Notes under the pieces: generated by a model
The model's input: only the letters and a program-made list of their open reading frames with translations
The model's database searches: none
Told to the model about the DNA's origin: nothing
From: a virus
Reading direction: 5' to 3' (one strand)
IMG/VR virus record: IMGVR_UViG_3300037560_000207
Span: 1 to 64,000 of that record
Length of the DNA: 64,000 bases
Shown: positions 6,391 through 57,654 of the stretch, piece after piece
Numbering within the stretch: the stretch's first letter is position 1
Layout of the letters: each line of letters starts with the position of its first letter
Translations under genes and position numbers: made by a program

Positions 6391-6736
6391 TGGAGACGCG
6401 GGGAATTGAACCCCGGTCCAGCGATAAAATTCAATAATACTTCTACGTGCATAGTTGATTATTTAAATCTCGGAGCCACAAACGCCAACCAACAGGCTTT
6501 TATTTTTCCACATCAGACTATTATTTCATATTGATCCGGTCGAATATCAAATCAACACTAGCCCACTGCCATCGTCAATCAGAATAGTAGGCGTCTTCCA
6601 ATTAACGGACTGCTTAAGCAGCCATTTTTAAACGAGCTTCGCCGTTTAAGATTATCGCCAGTTTTTTAACGAGGCCAACTGACAACCTCGGCACGCAACA
6701 TCACTTTCACTTACCCTGTCGATTCCTATCGTCCCC
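6391..6736 (-). ncRNA. ssrA: transfer-messenger RNA (tmRNA)
   Basis: 346 nt. The 5' end GGGGACG pairs with the 3' CGTCTCC plus discriminator A, keeping the G3-U70 wobble that specifies alanine. The 5' region has the family's ATAGGAATCGACAGGG signature and the 3' end has T-arm CCGGGGTTCAATTCCCCG. The internal frame ends GCT GCT TAA and reads AIILNGEARLKMAA, a plausible degradation tag with the expected -AA terminus; the exact resume codon is inferred. CCA is not encoded. It lies 4 bases after the upstream gene, so it is probably processed from the transcript made by the 7437 promoter. Confidence 0.93.
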
Positions 6737-27778: not shown

Positions 27779-27841
27779 CTATTCCCCTTCCTCAATAATA
27801 CCCATTGAAATACAAAGATTAAACATTTTATCAAAATTCAT
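27779..27841 (-). CDS. tiny frame, 20 aa (possible)
   Basis: MNFDKMFNLCISMGIIEEGE; its ATG overlaps the stop of the HNH gene as TGATG. It may be a coupled micro-protein or the displaced remainder of a gene interrupted by the endonuclease. Confidence 0.3.
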   Translation of the reverse strand: MNFDKMFNLCISMGIIEEGE

Positions 27842-28458
27842 CACTTCATTCCAACCTTTCTTTTGCTTCTTATTGATTTTGTTAAAGCCATTTCTGTTGT
27901 CCAATCAAGATCGAAACGTTTCCGAAGAGTATTTTCATTAATATTCATCTCTTCTGCCCAAGCAGTCAAACATTGTGTTCTACCTTTATATGTTTTCATA
28001 TTATTATTTCGTCTATTGCGACAGTTTATTTTAGAAGTAACCCAACGACAATTTTCCTTGCAATAATCACCATTATTATCAATTCTATCTATTTGAAATC
28101 TAGGTGGACTTTCTCCCATATCTTCCAGAAAATTCGGAAATTCCATCCATCGTTCGCAAACCATAATCCCTCTACCTCCATAAAAAGAATAATATTTATG
28201 ATTAGGATTGATACATCTTTGAATCATATTAATCCATAATCTATATTCTTTAAGTTCCTTACCATCTTTCCTGGGACCATATTTCGTTACTAAACATCCA
28301 CAACTTTTAGTATGATTTCTTTTAAGACTATTGGCTAGCACAATCGTTTTATTGCCACAATCACATTTGCACAACCATCTAGATTTTCCCCATTTATCTT
28401 TCCAGGTTTGTTTTATAACTTTAAGTTTACCAAATCTTTTACCAATTAAATCAATCAT
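27841..28458 (-). CDS. HNH-family mobile endonuclease with zinc ribbon, 205 aa
   Basis: N-terminal zinc module WLCKCDCGNKTIVLANSLKR...KSCGCL; central RLWINMIQRCINPNH and YGGRGIMVCERW; catalytic segment FQIDRIDNNGDYCKENCRWV; then NCRNRRNNN and a helical tail. This is a common stand-alone phage endonuclease family. It overlaps the portal stop by 8 bases. A close relative with a nonsense codon is at 39403. Confidence 0.85.
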   Translation of the reverse strand: MIDLIGKRFGKLKVIKQTWKDKWGKSRWLCKCDCGNKTIVLANSLKRNHTKSCGCLVTKYGPRKDGKELKEYRLWINMIQRCINPNHKYYSFYGGRGIMVCERWMEFPNFLEDMGESPPRFQIDRIDNNGDYCKENCRWVTSKINCRNRRNNNMKTYKGRTQCLTAWAEEMNINENTLRKRFDLDWTTEMALTKSIRSKRKVGMK

Positions 28459-49875: not shown

Positions 49876-50207
49876 AGGCCCTCCGATTTTTTTTGGCTTT
49901 TTTGTGGGGTAATAACGCGATTGATTTAGGGGTTGAAAAAGGGGTGTACCCCAAAAGGTGGGTGTTAAGGAGAGAAAAAGTGTACATGAAAAGTTGTAGG
50001 TAATGTGAAAAATGAGCCGGGTATGCCTAACCCCCCGCACGGTTATTGGACCCAGATGAGTTATCGGACCGTTTATAAAACGGGCCGCGCCCCTGTTTTG
50101 TCCTATAAACAGATACCCACGCCTACAAAGTTATCGGACTATTCTTGCTCGACTAGCAAGGAAAGTTATCGGACATAAAAAAGATTTTATTTTACTATGT
50201 TATAGGC
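49876..50207. other. divergent intergenic region
   Basis: 332 bases without genes between the divergent arms. It holds a GGGGT/ACCCC-type hairpin near 49951 and the first TTATCGGAC copies at 50061, 50131 and 50166. A site for an origin or a regulatory switch is possible; nothing proves it. Confidence 0.5.
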
Positions 50208-50236
50208 TTGCATTCTCGGGGGCGGTATGCTACAAT
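50208..50236 (+). promoter_or_regulatory. sigma70-type promoter of the right arm
   Basis: TTGCAT (50208-50213), 17 bases, TACAAT (50231-50236). It precedes the small-gene operon starting at 50264 and differs from the AACA-type promoters of the left arm. Confidence 0.7.
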
Positions 50237-50263
50237 ACAGGTAGAAAGAGAGGCATGGAAACG

Positions 50264-50431
50264 ATGAATTACCAGACTCTAATCACAAATGCAATGGGTT
50301 GGCTAGCCGATGATCCTATCAGAATTGCATGGATTATCGGAATCGTTGTGGTGCTCGGAGCGGTAAACGGTATTTATCGGTCGCTCGGACATTGTAGGAA
50401 TATCGGACATAGTGGGCGACGTATCCTATAA
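50264..50431 (+). CDS. small membrane protein, 55 aa
   Basis: MNYQTLITNAMGWLADDPIR, then a transmembrane helix (IAWIIGIVVVLGAVNGIY) and a basic tail. Start at the second ATG, 10 bases after GAGG; an ATG at 50255 is possible. Contains motif copies within its coding sequence. Function unknown. Confidence 0.55.
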   Translation: MNYQTLITNAMGWLADDPIRIAWIIGIVVVLGAVNGIYRSLGHCRNIGHSGRRIL

Positions 50432-50525
50432 CGATAGGGGTAATAACGATGTTTTGGTATCGGATTATCTGGTGTGCGGTGGTAATCACAGTTATCGGTA
50501 TGTGGTAGGTTATCGGAGGGACAAA

Positions 50526-50612
50526 ATGACCATCATTATCGGATGTGTGGTTTTAGTGATTATAGGAGCCCTTGCGATATGGGGCGTGTTTAACGACATT
50601 ACCGGACTATAA
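50526..50612 (+). CDS. small membrane protein, 28 aa
   Basis: MTIIIGCVVLVIIGALAIWG plus a short tail, essentially one transmembrane helix, behind GGAGGGACAAA. I chose the internal start because of this site; a longer frame from 50412 lacks one. Function unknown. Confidence 0.6.
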   Translation: MTIIIGCVVLVIIGALAIWGVFNDITGL

Positions 50613-50626
50613 CAGGAGCGGTAACT

Positions 50627-50887
50627 ATGTTCGGAAACGCTACAATCGACATACCAGGAAACGGAGTTATCGGACCAACACACATGGAAGGATTATCGGA
50701 CCAACTTGCGTTGTGTATGGGACGTATCGCAGCGATGACGTTACCGGATGCCTTCATTACAGTTATACTTGAAGGCGGAATATTGGTAGTTATCGGATGT
50801 GATAAGTTCAACGGCGAGATTGTTATCAGACGTTGTAGTGGTTATCGGGAATATGCCAATAACATAGTAGGAGGGCCTATAATATAA
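50627..50887 (+). CDS. hypothetical protein, 86 aa
   Basis: MFGNATIDIPGNGVIGPTHM, then helical LALCMGRIAAMTLPDAFITV and beta ILEGGILVVIGCDKFNGEIV. AGGAGCGGTAACT precedes the ATG. Several TTATCGG motifs are embedded, encoding V-I-G and L-S-D in different frames. Confidence 0.6.
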   Translation: MFGNATIDIPGNGVIGPTHMEGLSDQLALCMGRIAAMTLPDAFITVILEGGILVVIGCDKFNGEIVIRRCSGYREYANNIVGGPII

Positions 50888-51234
50888 TGGGACCACTAGA
50901 AGTTATAGGACCGTATGCTGGTACTGTAATAACTACCAGAAAGACGGACGTTCCCGCGACCAATAACCCACCCAATGGTACTTCTATACTTATCGGACTA
51001 CTCATGCTCCCGTTGGGGTTATTAGCCCTTGTATTTATAGGACTATACGTGTGGGCATACCGATTTCCTTTGTGTCTTATTGGACTAATCGTTATCGGAC
51101 TATGGGCGTGTGCCCATTTTGGGTCCAATAAACCACTAATAAGGTGGCATAGAAAGAACAGATTATCAGACGAGCAACGTGCTAGAATCGAGCGCAGATT
51201 ATCAGACATCGAACGACAGCCGGGGCTGCAATAG
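50887..51234 (+). CDS. membrane protein, 115 aa
   Basis: Two hydrophobic segments (ILIGLLMLPLGLLALVFIGL and FPLCLIGLIVIGLWACAHFG) and a basic cytoplasmic tail RLSDEQRARIERRLSDIERQ. ATG overlaps the previous stop. Function unknown; location and size suit an early host-takeover or lysis-timing protein, without proof. Confidence 0.62.
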   Translation: MGPLEVIGPYAGTVITTRKTDVPATNNPPNGTSILIGLLMLPLGLLALVFIGLYVWAYRFPLCLIGLIVIGLWACAHFGSNKPLIRWHRKNRLSDEQRARIERRLSDIERQPGLQ

Positions 51235-51290
51235 TCTGATAATAGTAAAGGCTAGTTTAGTGTGTCGAAGTCATACATAGGGGAATTACG

Positions 51291-51647
51291 ATGAGAAACG
51301 TAGTTATAGGACAGACCGGACGGATTCCATTATCAGACGATGCGATCATGCGTAAACTGTCGCATAGACGAACGGTCCGATATCAGTACGCAAAGGCAAA
51401 GCACGGGTGGATAGCATGGGTTTGCGGACCTTTTCATTCCCGGACCTACGGAGCGTGCGCGTTTGGGACCGATAAAAGAAGGAGTAGAGTCTCGCTTCAA
51501 AGGCGGTTGGCTAATAATTATCGGTATCTAGGTCTTATGCTACACTCGGACGTGGACGATGCAGATAACGTGGGCAACGTGGACGATAGGTTATTGGACG
51601 TGGGCGTGGTCAATAGGGCGATAACTGAAGGCGTTTGTCGCCTGTAG
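51291..51647 (+). CDS. basic hypothetical protein, 118 aa
   Basis: MRNVVIGQTGRIPLSDDAIM, HRRTVRYQYAKAKHGWIAWV, then an arginine-rich and finally Asp-rich section. RBS AGGGGAATTACG. No family recognised. Confidence 0.55.
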   Translation: MRNVVIGQTGRIPLSDDAIMRKLSHRRTVRYQYAKAKHGWIAWVCGPFHSRTYGACAFGTDKRRSRVSLQRRLANNYRYLGLMLHSDVDDADNVGNVDDRLLDVGVVNRAITEGVCRL

Positions 51648-51676
51648 ATTATTGGACACAAAACAGGAGAAAACTT

Positions 51677-51856
51677 ATGGGACTAACGGTGAAAGAATTA
51701 AGAACCGCTTTAAGGGAGTTAGCAGACGATTGCCAAGTTATATTATCGGTCGAGGATGATAATCCACCAGTACCGATAATCCACGAGACGGAGGCAATCG
51801 GCGCAATTGTCGGTCCTGGGGTAATCAAGATTCTCGGAACAATGCACTACCGCTAA
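51677..51856 (+). CDS. small protein, 59 aa
   Basis: MGLTVKELRTALRELADDCQ, then VILSVEDDNPPVPIIHETEA. The TVKELxxxLxxLxxD-x-V opening is common in small phage proteins and recurs at 57296. RBS AGGAGAAAACTT. Ends just before the terminator at 51869. Confidence 0.68.
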   Translation: MGLTVKELRTALRELADDCQVILSVEDDNPPVPIIHETEAIGAIVGPGVIKILGTMHYR

Positions 51857-51868
51857 TATCTAGGAATC

Positions 51869-51892
51869 GGCCCGATTTTATCGGGCCTTTTC
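51869..51892 (+). terminator. Rho-independent terminator
   Basis: GGCCCGA, loop, TCGGGCC, then T5. It closes the first right-arm operon. The loop plus stem reads TTTTATCGGG, so it incorporates the regional motif. Confidence 0.92.
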
Positions 51893-52082
51893 CATGCGCA
51901 TCTCGTAACATTATCGGACCATCACTTTTGCGTCTTGCTTTCATTATCGGACAGGACTGCATTATAGGTCTTGTCTGGAAACTAACTTACCCTGTCTGTA
52001 ATATTGTGGATGTTATTCGACAGTAGTGATAATATCGTTATTTTTATAGGAACAAAAAATGGTTATCGGAGTATAATAAGTT

Positions 52083-52616
52083 ATGGGAACTACCTACGCA
52101 CTACCAGTTATTGGACGAAACTACGAGTTATCGGCTATCGTGGACGTGGAGGATTATCGGACACTTAAGTTATGGGAATATAGGTGGTATAGAGTTATCG
52201 GAACCAGCGGTATCACTTATGCTCAGACCAATATAAACGGTAAAATGATTACCCTCCATCGCTTAATTATGGGAACTACGGATCGGCCAAGGTCCGTATG
52301 TGTAGATCATATTGATAGAAACGGACTTAATTGTTCTCGGACTAATATGCGTATAACCGATAATACAGGCAATCAAAGAAACGCTCGTAAACATTTATCG
52401 GCCAATCCCACAAGTTCCTATAAAGGTGTCCGACATATGGGTCCAAAATATCGGACCAAACCTTGGCGCGCAGAAATTACATTATCGGATAGCCAACCAC
52501 AACACATTGGAACTTATCGGACTCAAGAAGACGCAGCAAAGGCTTATAATAAAGCGGCCATAAAATTATTTGGACCTATGGCACGATTGAATGTTATTAG
52601 ACCCAAATCCACCTAA
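52083..52616 (+). CDS. HNH/AP2 homing endonuclease, 177 aa
   Basis: HNH_3-type core: ITLHRLIMGTTDRPRSVCVD-HIDRNGLNCSRTNMR, then NQRNARKH; C-terminal AP2 DNA-binding domain SSYKGVRHMGPKYRTKPWRA, HIGTYRTQEDAAKAYNKAAI. At least eight copies or near-copies of the TTATCGG motif lie inside the gene, so it has been resident long enough to acquire, or was selected for, the regional signal. Confidence 0.92.
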   Translation: MGTTYALPVIGRNYELSAIVDVEDYRTLKLWEYRWYRVIGTSGITYAQTNINGKMITLHRLIMGTTDRPRSVCVDHIDRNGLNCSRTNMRITDNTGNQRNARKHLSANPTSSYKGVRHMGPKYRTKPWRAEITLSDSQPQHIGTYRTQEDAAKAYNKAAIKLFGPMARLNVIRPKST

Positions 52617-52809
52617 AAAACATATCGGACTGTGTTTTTGTCCAGTAATATCGTTATTCTTACCTAAAAAATACGGTTATTTTCAACCTAGCATAATATA
52701 TCCTATCGGACTTTAGTAAACGGACGTAATTATTATCGGCTAGGACGTTATTTGCCGATAAAAACACGATTGGCGCGCCAAAAACACCTAAAAAAAACCT
52801 ATATAATGT

Positions 52810-52838
52810 TTGACCTATTGTATAACTACCCCTATAGT
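52810..52838 (+). promoter_or_regulatory. sigma70 promoter before the structured-RNA tract
   Basis: TTGACC (52810-52815), 17 bases, TATAGT (52833-52838). Predicted RNA start about 52845, at the beginning of the hairpin-rich region. Confidence 0.78.
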
Positions 52839-52844
52839 ATAGTG

Positions 52845-53160
52845 TAGGATAAGAAACCATAGGGTTATAAGACAGTGTGATAACGGGGAAGCGCCCTACC
52901 GGAAGCGGAGTCTCAAATCCGATAGTCTTGGGAACGTCCCACCGAGATTGTGGGTGAGCGTCCGACAGAGTGTTTGCTCGGGGCGCGAGCCCCGGTATAG
53001 GACGTTTCTCCGTTATCATTCCGACGTGACTATCATAGTCACCGATAATAAGTGATCTACGCAATGTAGGTCCGAATAATGATTCCGAGATTCACTACTT
53101 GCTCGTCCTATAATCGGGACGGAGTAGTCTCGGTATGGGACGGGCAATAACTCTTCTTGC
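52845..53160 (+). ncRNA. structured RNA / leader candidate I
   Basis: An outer pairing GATAACGG (52879) with CCGTTATC (53011) encloses CCCAC/GTGGG and a GGGGC-GCGA-GCCCC hairpin with a GNRA tetraloop. Next come GTGACTA/TAGTCAC and CGTCC/GGACG hairpins. It runs to the ribosome site of the 53173 gene, so it may be a 5' regulatory leader, or the first domain of a large ornate RNA. No match to a known riboswitch core was recognised. Confidence 0.6.
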
Positions 53161-53172
53161 AAGGAGAATTGT

Positions 53173-53520
53173 ATGCCGTCTAGTTCCACAATTGCCGAGT
53201 CTACCACAGCTAGTGGTACGGAATTCGGGTCCGCTGAATTCATCGAGAATGCTGTCTCTTATGCGGAACACAGGGCGCTCGTCAACGCCGCGTCCAAGTA
53301 CGATAACTTGGATGATGCACAAGCCGCGCTTTCTACCGTTTGGGCAGCGCTCGTTGAGCAATCCCAACAGGGTGGAGGGTTTACGCCGTCTGTCGAGTTG
53401 GGGTTCGGGTCTGATAATGCCTCGCAGATCGCGTTTGCACTTATCGGACAACGGAGTCGAGTCACCGATACCCGTAAGGCTATGGTAGCCGTCGGTAAGG
53501 CGAATACGCCGAGCACGTAG
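53173..53520 (+). CDS. hypothetical protein, 115 aa
   Basis: MPSSSTIAESTTASGTEFGS, helical middle (NAVSYAEHRALVNAASKYDN, AQAALSTVWAALVEQSQQGG) and a basic end, behind a strong AAGGAGAATTGT site. Alanine/serine-rich, no known domain. It is the only convincing gene in the RNA tract and is flanked on both sides by structured RNA. Confidence 0.65.
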   Translation: MPSSSTIAESTTASGTEFGSAEFIENAVSYAEHRALVNAASKYDNLDDAQAALSTVWAALVEQSQQGGGFTPSVELGFGSDNASQIAFALIGQRSRVTDTRKAMVAVGKANTPST

Positions 53521-54086
53521 TATCTATCGCACCGCGTCTCTAACGTCCAGTAACTCCGGTGGATGATGCCGTTAGGGACGTGGACCGATGGGTATTCTAA
53601 ATCGCTTAGTGGGTGGCACCCATATTGACGGTCAATGATCGTCTAACATAGGCACGCTGTTTGTGTCAGCGATTCCCATAACCCTTTATCACAGCGGGGA
53701 GTCCGATAAGCATCGGGTATACCCGGACGGGGTTGGTCTAGTCCGATAGTCCGCCGTAGTAGGGTCTGTCGAACGTGCAGGATGTGCGCTTCGGGTCTGA
53801 ACCGGAGAATTACGGTTATCGGTCGAAGCCAATCTTAGAAGCGACAAAACGTAGGATTCGAGAATACGAATCCAGTCTACGCCGATAATATGGGCGAGAT
53901 AAGTAACGGTCTTGTCTGCGCAATTCCCTATATGGCGCGCACGGTTCTGGTTCAGCGCCAGATAGCGCTCTGTCTAGGTATAATTGTGTTGACTATCGAA
54001 CAAGACGTTATGGGAATACGTCCGTGGTTCGGTGTAGGCAAGTTAAATCGTCGTGGGATAGGCATATCCTAATGACGGGTTTTTTT
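53521..54086 (+). ncRNA. structured RNA candidate II (about 0.57 kb)
   Basis: No supported frame. Opens with a 14-pair stem (53532-53545 with 53570-53583, one G-U region), then TGGGT/ACCCA, ATTGA/TCAAT and GGATTCG/CGAATCC (53854-53873, extended by GTAG/CTAC). Ends in a T7 terminator. Size, density of stems and position near tRNAs are reminiscent of large ornate phage RNAs (GOLLD, ROOL), but no specific match is claimed. Confidence 0.55.
54049..54086 (+). terminator. terminator of RNA candidate II
   Basis: CGTC...GGGATA-GGCA-TATCCT...GACG followed by seven T. An alternative stem, GACGGG with CCTGTC across the T run, is possible. Confidence 0.75.
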
Positions 54087-54129
54087 GTCCCTGTCGATAA
54101 ACTTTTCTATGCAGATGGTCTAGTTTATT

Positions 54130-54663
54130 ATAGCTGACAATACGCTGGGTCGGATAATAGAAAACGGCGCGGAATACACCTGTCGGGATTGGCATTGAAA
54201 CAGTAAAACGCAAACGGGTAGAATGCGTGTAGCTGTTTCCTTGTAGCCGAACGACACGACGCGGCGGCAGTAGTAAAGCTGGAGTAAACCGACTGTCCGG
54301 TCCAGTGGCGCGCTAGCCCGTCGTTATAAAGTACACAAGAAACAGTCCTATCTGTGATAAGGGTTCGTTTATTCGGATTCCGGTACACTAACTGACAGTA
54401 AAGTAACGGTAGGGCTTTGTACATAAAAAGCAGAGGTAGGGCCTACGGGCCGGGAAGTTAAATCGTATTCTCCATAGAAGAGTCGATAAAGAACATTGTT
54501 CGAGCCGTGTCGATCTTTAATAATTGGAGAATAGATTTAACGGCAAACTTGGTGGGTTAGTTTGTCAACTTTTGGAGTGTTCCCGAGAAGTTTGGATCAC
54601 CATTCGTCAGAGGAACGGGGAGCCTGCCGTACCAGTTTTGGTGGAAATTCTGGTACACTTTTT
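54130..54663 (+). ncRNA. structured RNA candidate III (about 0.53 kb)
   Basis: No supported frame. GAAACAG/CTGTTTC (54197/54233) encloses ACGCA/TGCGT. GGCC-TACG-GGCC at 54440-54451 is a UNCG tetraloop hairpin. A 17-pair stem with one bulge (54457-54474 with 54525-54541) encloses an 8-pair stem and a GAAC/GTTC tip. It ends in a terminator. This nesting is far beyond a random spacer. Identity unknown; GOLLD/ROOL-type ornate RNA is the leading guess. Confidence 0.65.
54627..54663 (+). terminator. terminator of RNA candidate III
   Basis: GTACCAG, 14-base loop, CTGGTAC, then AC and T5. Confidence 0.8.
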
Positions 54664-54740
54664 ACGATGACATATCACTACGGACTGCAATCTAGCCAAT
54701 GGGAATAACGTGTTATATATTAGCCAAATCGACGAATGAG

Positions 54741-54805
54741 GTATAGAGCGCCGTCTGAGGGTTTGGGTTTAACCTGATCGCCTATAATAGGCGGCTCATC
54801 TATAC
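54741..54805 (+). ncRNA. small structured element
   Basis: GTATAGA (54741) pairs with TCTATAC (54799), enclosing CGCCTA/TAGGCG. It lies upstream of the 54964 gene and could be a leader or a further RNA domain. The flanks up to 54963 show no other feature. Confidence 0.45.
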
Positions 54806-54963
54806 TTTGTCGTCGGGCGTACTTAATAGAAATCGTGCGCACGGTATCTATTGGGGTATATGGCGCGCCTTGAGGGGTGAAATATATATAGAAGCCACAC
54901 TTGGCGTTGCAGCCTGTAGTGATGTGTCATTTTTTAGGGAAATCTGTAAAAGGAAAAATAAGA

Positions 54964-55134
54964 ATGAAAGAGCGTGAACTTGCATGTTGGATTGTCGGAA
55001 GTATAATGGGTTTCACCGCCCTTATGATAGGGGGGATAGGATACTATACCGCAAAGCTTGCAACCATTAAATATGAGGCGTGGATTCAAATCTCCCACGA
55101 GGTAATGAAAGCAATCACCAGTCTAACAGACTAA
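54964..55134 (+). CDS. small membrane protein, 56 aa
   Basis: MKERELACWIVGSIMGFTAL, MIGGIGYYTAKLATIKYEAW: one transmembrane helix with an extracytoplasmic or cytoplasmic helical tail. Start at 54964 behind AAAAGGAAAAATAAG. Function unknown. Confidence 0.62.
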   Translation: MKERELACWIVGSIMGFTALMIGGIGYYTAKLATIKYEAWIQISHEVMKAITSLTD

Positions 55135-55796: not shown

Positions 55797-55894
55797 GAAG
55801 GTGGTAGTTTAATTGGTAAAGCAGCCTATATCCTGATATAATCCTATCGGATCAGGGTGTAAGCAATCGCGGGTTCGAGTCCCGTCCACCTTCT
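55797..55894 (+). tRNA. tRNA-like gene with oversized anticodon arm
   Basis: Acceptor GAAGGTGG/CCACCTTC, D-arm GTTT-AATTGGTA-AAGC and T-arm GCGGG-TTCGAGT-CCCGT are all canonical. Between D and T arms, where about 22 bases are usual, are 45. GCCTATATCCTGAT pairs with ATCAGGGTGTAAGC (13 of 14 pairs) around a 13-base loop. With a standard five-pair stem the loop would be 31 bases and lacks U33. No normal anticodon can be assigned. It may carry a short insertion, be a pseudo-tRNA, or be a tRNA mimic. Confidence 0.7.
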
Positions 55895-56784: not shown

Positions 56785-56894
56785 TTATCACCCCAATAAA
56801 ACAACATCGTCCCAAAAATAGACTATCCGGGGTTCCCTAATAAGTATTCGGGGTTTTCTATGAATAGTCCGGGTGTGTCTCTATACCAGGTGTA

Positions 56895-56948
56895 AATCAA
56901 TAAAATCCTGCGTTTTTTGTAGGCGCTAGCGACTTAGTCTTATTGATT
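56895..56948 (+). promoter_or_regulatory. hairpin leader of the 56962 gene
   Basis: AATCAATAA pairs with TTATTGATT (9 bp) around a 36-base loop containing CCTGCGTTTTTTGTAGGCGC. The TTTTTGTAGGC core recurs at about 57238 and 57593 ahead of two more genes, so it may be a shared leader element. Confidence 0.45.
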
Positions 56949-57454: not shown

Positions 57455-57654
57455 GTTTCGCAGGCTGCAAAACCAAAGTCAAATCTAATCTCGTTTACCG
57501 TGTATATACGATTGTGGGGCTTAGTGGTGACGGGTGGGATAAAGTGGGTAACAAGGCGCTAGGTACAAAAATTGTACCCTGTTTATTATTTTTTGTAGGC
57601 TAATGCCGTGGGTTGACGATAAATATCGTCTCATTTTGTAAGAAGATACTAGAA

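Follow-up and report, generated by a model that had tools for sequence, protein, structure and literature searches.

GOLLD forms a 14-mer cage and ROOL an 8-mer cage, both built of RNA only and of unknown purpose; giant phage RNAs already have precedent as a general idea. GOLLD, large and ornate, occurs in phages and prophages, frequently close to tRNA genes, and has a conserved 3′ part and a less conserved 5′ part (PMC12286853). ROOL measures ~580–660 nt and has a disordered linker and no conserved ORF (PMC12286853, PMC5643018), and the bacterial OLE RNA is conserved, ~600 nt long and accompanied by protein partners (PMC12286853, PMC9723947). Extrachromosomal mycobacterial prophages have RNA-based origins and no RepA (PMC7157519).

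We analysed a 64,000-nucleotide stretch (hereafter the window) from an uncultured virus, part of a contig of 181,360 bases, in which a tract of nested RNA structure had been predicted from sequence features. Like GOLLD, the RNA proposed here is phage-borne, ornate, near tRNA genes and composed of a conserved 3′ part and a less conserved 5′ part. However, it is about twice as long (~1.7 kilobases), has a protein gene between its 5′ and 3′ structured parts and an array of 9-mers upstream, and is a putative oligomer where GOLLD forms a cage. Like ROOL, it is large, ornate, associated with phages and close to tRNA genes, but it gave no covariance-model match and contains a conserved ORF. OLE is likewise a large conserved RNA and a possible parallel as an RNP; unlike OLE, the present RNA is phage-borne and without a match, and the partner proteins are unrelated as far as tested. 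HEARO or IscB-type omega RNA and group I/II introns also pair a structured RNA with an ORF, either next to it or within it, whereas the ORF embedded here is small and of no nuclease or reverse-transcriptase family, and Rfam gave no match.

Specifically, the Rfam search proposed with the original prediction found no relevant family: no curated family of Rfam 15 matched at E ≤ 10 in 52600–55100, nothing relevant appeared at E ≤ 5 in six relatives, and the covariance models of GOLLD, ROOL, OLE, HEARO and group I and group II introns had no match in the tract or its relatives. Membership in GOLLD or ROOL, one of the possibilities first raised, is therefore not supported. A very divergent member of either family would also be phage-borne, long and near tRNA genes, but the failure of the covariance models in tract and relatives and the embedded ORF make this highly improbable. 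With covariation in homologues (below) and no Rfam match, the other possibility first raised, a class not yet described, is the one retained. That the tract codes for a novel class of large structured RNA in phages is almost certain. The family, its architecture and the array were found neither in Rfam 15 nor in the phage and plasmid collections nor in the open-access papers searched. Very few RNAs of such size and order are known from phages; the present one would rank among the largest structured phage RNAs known, as an independent class with an internal protein gene and a fixed neighbouring array.

Distribution and genome setting of the unit

The segment 52.81–54.57 kb is a single conserved unit that is also present in 10 further uncultured phage contigs (11 genomes in total). 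The relatives (L062, L063, L064, L065/L066, L067, L068, L069, L070, L084 and L088) were collected by profile and pattern searches starting from DNA and ORF matches; L065 and L066 are near-identical and were taken as one, and the contigs are possibly incomplete. The DNA of 52800–54950 matched four relatives at 72–79% in stretches, including the noncoding 53648–54073, and an early search found the ORF at 53173–53520 beside the DNA match in five. The members keep a fixed order of promoter, structured leader, ORF of 103–115 aa, ~1.05 kb of structured RNA and covarying terminal hairpin (L070 is truncated by the contig end), and this unit is kept across a family of ~160–180 kb phages. Coordinates are collected in Table 1.

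Table 1. Features of the RNA locus and the adjoining array, in window coordinates.
Feature	Position	Strand	Basis
Array of 9-mer TTATNGGAC, about 35 near-exact copies	50043..52741	+	Word counts; also in ten relatives
118-aa gene inside array	51291..51647	+	Conserved in 11/11 genomes
Sigma70-type promoter TTGACC-17-TATAGT, conserved TATAACT in spacer	52810..52838	+	Pattern and conservation
5′ variable leader part, holds GCGA hairpin	52845..53010	+	Alignment
Conserved leader	53011..53172	+	Covariation
Embedded ORF, 115 aa	53173..53520	+	Purifying selection; no known family
Main structured domain, 34 covarying helices, 211 pairs	53521..54451	+	Covariation, alignment A3
Variable long stem, GTTAAATC.../...GATTTAAC in window	54457..54541	+	Alignment
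Terminal hairpin 54542–54549/54559–54566, loop with invariant GGTGGG, then short T-run	54542..54573	+	Covariation
Second similar hairpin, GTACCAG, loop with GGTGG, CTGGTAC, then T5	54629..54663	+	Sequence

No match to the tract was found in cultured phages and plasmids (blastn/tblastn) or, by protein alignment, in GTDB genomes, and neither the downstream 69-aa ORF nor a single ORF sequence as query recovered relatives. Several 17-base pattern matches were judged to be chance, and matches of an over-extended sequence profile beyond the RNA 3′ end were spurious and discarded. Note that very near relatives may be missing from the collections searched. The terminase has relatives of 59–84% identity in 25 IMG/VR contigs, and only ~25% similarity to cultured phages. 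Five contigs of 160–180 kb relatives (G017, G026, G028, G029 and G001) end inside or a few kb from the array or RNA locus, at differing points that may be genome termini or assembly breaks.

The minus-strand arm of the genome carries the terminase and virion-type genes, and the plus-strand arm DnaB helicase, PolIII alpha, RecA, ribonucleotide reductase and DNA ligase. The plus-strand arm begins where the tract is found, just past the minimum of cumulative GC skew; in the relative G007, the RNA locus is also at a switch of gene direction and skew. The proximity to tRNA genes noted at the outset was borne out, with tRNA genes 1.2–1.6 kb downstream of the tract and, in L066, a tRNA-Asp beginning directly at the RNA 3′ end.

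The pRNA of phage phi29 has a structural role and functions in oligomeric form. A DNA-packaging RNA analogous to it would suit the position of the present RNA, which in 4 of the 7 records over 150 kb is no more than ~4.5 kb away from a contig end. On the other hand, the contigs end at different places, one of them inside the RNA, the terminase is in the opposite arm, and the RNA is about ten times larger than pRNA, so that a packaging role appears very unlikely.

Two further features lie downstream. A second noncoding block (56822–56900 and 57455–57620; GAAACTATCCGGGGTTTTT... and ...GGCGCTAGGTACAAAA...TTGTAGGCTA), common to relatives, is split by small ORFs in the window, and its reading as a structured RNA is not supported by a conserved fold (z −1.3, 6 sequences). 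A tRNA-like gene at 55798–55893, whose loop region is oversized, scored 39.8 bits in Rfam and was not called by ARAGORN.

Fold, ends and transcription signals of the RNA

The consensus structure is conservative and was derived from eight aligned closer members (alignment A3); over its 211 pairs, 93.8% of cells are paired. Pairs changed on both sides numbered 97, compared with 41.3 in shuffles and 18–27 in slid versions, and none of 500 shuffles matched this count. The covariation score was 0.425 against 0.228 in shuffles and about 0.09 in slid versions. The RNAalifold energy of the eight members was −473 versus −257 ± 9 (z −24.8) in 60 column shuffles preserving gaps and conservation, and the covariation term reached a z of 15.7. 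In the first 10-sequence alignment, for which parallel-strand helices served as the null of the helix finder, antiparallel helices had covariation scores of up to 96, whereas the best null helix scored 45. The long nested stems seen originally are thus far above chance at the alignment level. Long-range helices in the main domain include 53729–53836, 53874–54040 and 54049–54055/54255–54261. A candidate pseudoknot (54293–54297/54408–54412) was not above the parallel null. A symmetric kissing loop with covariation, which would point directly to oligomerisation, did not turn up.

Because the consensus structure came from the same alignment, a held-out test was run. A covariance model of 53520–53681 was built on the eight members with the divergent L064, L062 and L070 excluded, and it found these at 41.7, 34.1 and 33.4 bits, respectively, each just after the ORF. 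A sequence-only model gave 25.9 bits for L064, 12.8 bits for L062 and no match for L070, indicating a gain of 16–21 bits or more from structure. With the double-change pairs and the recovery of held-out members, the covariation test in homologues suggested by the original prediction came out in its favour. The test for protein frames across the structured part, set beforehand, found none, and no long conserved frame lies outside 53173–53520 in the alignments. Judged by its aligned homologues, the tract almost certainly encodes a large structured noncoding RNA whose conserved secondary structure is supported by covariation. Chance folding, or misread coding DNA, draws on the region being richer in G+C than the rest, since any single sequence there folds stably; the covariation, the held-out members and the lack of a further long frame refute it and leave its likelihood practically nil.

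The tract had been thought to hold possibly two RNAs (53.5–54.09 and 54.13–54.66 kb), with a terminator at a T-run near 54080. However, helix 54049–54055/54255–54261 bridges the proposed gap, with all cells paired and double changes in three pairs, and the T-run is absent in relatives, which argues for one RNA and against a terminator at that site. A pattern scan found no plus-strand terminators within the tract. The main domain ends with a UACG hairpin at 54440–54451, kept in 6 of 8 members. This tetraloop hairpin of the original prediction stood; the GCGA one belongs to a variable insert at the 5′ side, missing from most members. The long stem that follows the domain differs in sequence among members, yet is again a stem in most. 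In the terminal hairpin, 6 of 8 bp have changes on both sides, and this covarying hairpin (54542–54566) is the more likely 3′ end of the RNA, the second hairpin being a possible backup terminator. Terminator-like hairpins of this kind recur (54545–54573 and 54629–54663, with similar ones in L068, L069 and L084, and also near tRNA genes); they have a GGTGG(G) loop followed by CACTTTTT or similar, and may be a family-specific 3′-end signal.

At the 5′ side, a textbook sigma70 promoter had been claimed. Its consensus alone does not stand out from chance (12 sites of promoter type versus 10.7 expected in shuffles), but the promoter is credible because TTGAC-N5-GTATAACT-N5-TATAGTATNNTGTA is kept in relatives at the same position and spacing. 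This pattern occurs once in the window, and a search of the viral collection recovered only members of this RNA family. Transcription would start near 52845. The variable part of the leader is mostly missing in other members except L068, whose insert looks unrelated. The conserved part contains a covarying 7-bp hairpin (53054–53060/53066–53072) and an 11-bp helix (53101–53111/53135–53145) just ahead of the ribosome-binding site of the ORF.

Two later strands just before the ribosome-binding site are alternative partners for strand 53101–53111, a possible switch by which the leader and 3′ structure would act only in cis, controlling translation or stability of the mRNA of the 115-aa ORF. Such a limited function is unlikely, given that most of the structure (>1 kb) follows the stop codon and is conserved beyond the needs of the ORF's surroundings. 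Cis-control, a packaging RNA and a divergent GOLLD or ROOL are all less likely than the architectural and origin readings discussed below.

Embedded protein, repeat array and proposed role

The embedded ORF, the one convincing gene of the original prediction, held up as such. It shows 34–50% identity to the ten relatives, with pN 0.36 below pS 0.66 and pN<pS in 55 of 55 pairs; by this substitution pattern, it is a genuine coding sequence under purifying selection. Conserved structure flanks it on both sides; the original prediction contained neither this embedding nor the upstream array. Comparison of the protein with Pfam, PHROGs and PDB sequences gave only noise and no convincing family, and an AlphaFold model predicted it to be helical at low confidence, too weak for a fold search.

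The array runs through small ORFs and intergenic DNA and stops just short of the promoter. In 11 genomes, the 3 kb ahead of the promoter contain TATNGGA 406 times, against 16.7 ± 3.9 expected from dinucleotide shuffles and 58 on the other strand of the same 3 kb. Each genome has 22–52 array copies on the same strand, and only scattered copies of TTATNGGAC elsewhere; N is C in 63%. Since the copies fall in all codon phases and their positions in the 118-aa gene are partly conserved and partly lineage-specific, the array seems to be under selection as nucleic acid. Spacing is irregular (mode 25–27 bp) with unconserved intervening sequence, and the strongest period is ~8.75–9, driven by spacings near 18, 26 and 35; ten-base helical phasing was not clear. 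The open-access papers listed for the word TTATCGGAC gave nothing relevant.

Sequence searches of Pfam and PDB gave no match for the 118-aa protein. In its model, the elements follow the alpha-beta-beta-beta-alpha order typical of double-stranded RNA-binding domains (dsRBDs), and many dsRBDs were among the structure matches, none of them significant (best Z 5.3), pointing weakly to a dsRBD-like topology.

The role that we favour, with a probability of roughly 45% for the whole statement including the transcription scheme, is that of an RNA with an architectural function in the early arm, whether ornate, RNP or oligomeric. Transcription by host RNA polymerase would begin at the sigma70-type promoter, where the replication-gene arm starts, and the ORF would be translated from the same transcript, with leader and 3′ part folding around the ORF. 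The folded RNA would be an abundant homo-oligomer or an RNP, for which the embedded protein, the dsRBD-like neighbour or both are candidate partners, and might work in the mode of GOLLD, ROOL or OLE without membership in those families. We base this reading on the same layout in 11 genomes, the covariation, the held-out members and the conserved promoter, together with structure on both sides of a selected gene, the GOLLD/ROOL-like setting and the dsRBD-like neighbour in all 11.

Counting against it are the absence of a symmetric covarying kissing loop, the statistically weak dsRBD resemblance and the low-confidence model of the embedded protein. The position of the array at the GC-skew minimum suggests, also against the architectural reading, a role linked to an origin. 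As the main rival, the locus would be an RNA-based replication origin or copy control, with the TTATNGGAC array as an initiator-binding or RNA-pairing origin that the giant RNA primes, opens or regulates near its site of synthesis. All members have 20–50 same-strand 9-mers directly upstream, showing the direct repeats by which iteron origins are recognised, and the skew minimum coincides with divergence of the two arms in G000 and G007. The RNA is also enriched in the complementary word UCCNAUA (46 versus 3.3 ± 1.9 expected), and RNA-based origins in mycobacterial prophages provide a phage noncoding RNA at a replication region (PMC7157519). However, skew follows, and is confounded by, gene direction; the region is GC-rich rather than AT-rich; and the complementary words in the window's RNA are mostly within its own helices. 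No Bac_DnaA domain was found in the six records searched, and DnaA was accordingly dropped as reader of the array. In addition, the ~1 kb of conserved structure after the ORF exceeds the needs of known primer RNAs. The mycobacterial prophage ori regions span a few hundred bases, and the available part of that report describes no comparable structure or array (PMC7157519). We regard the origin reading as doubtful, and the architectural RNA as the preferred one.

The array nevertheless gives a concrete hook on function. Conceivably, although this seems rather unlikely, the GUCCNAUAA words of the RNA pair with the 20–50 upstream UUAUNGGAC words, or share a binding protein with them, as one machine. 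If so, array DNA or its transcripts would be brought together on an RNA scaffold at the apparent origin, and nucleic acid would form a compartment for replication or transcription.

Other features of these genomes include a phage-encoded tmRNA on the minus strand (6391–6736) with the tag GEARLKMAA. Outside the window lie a BrxL-like Lon-related ATPase of a BREX component family (G000:107406–108857; L095:3406–4857; E 7e-103) and a large subunit of ribonucleotide reductase that contains an intein and a LAGLIDADG domain (G000:117421–120345; L095:13421–16345). HNH/homing-type endonuclease-like genes are unusually many, for example at 27841–28458, at 52083–52616 and along the right arm, and they include a repeated 'IGKxFGRLxV...WLCxCxCG' family.
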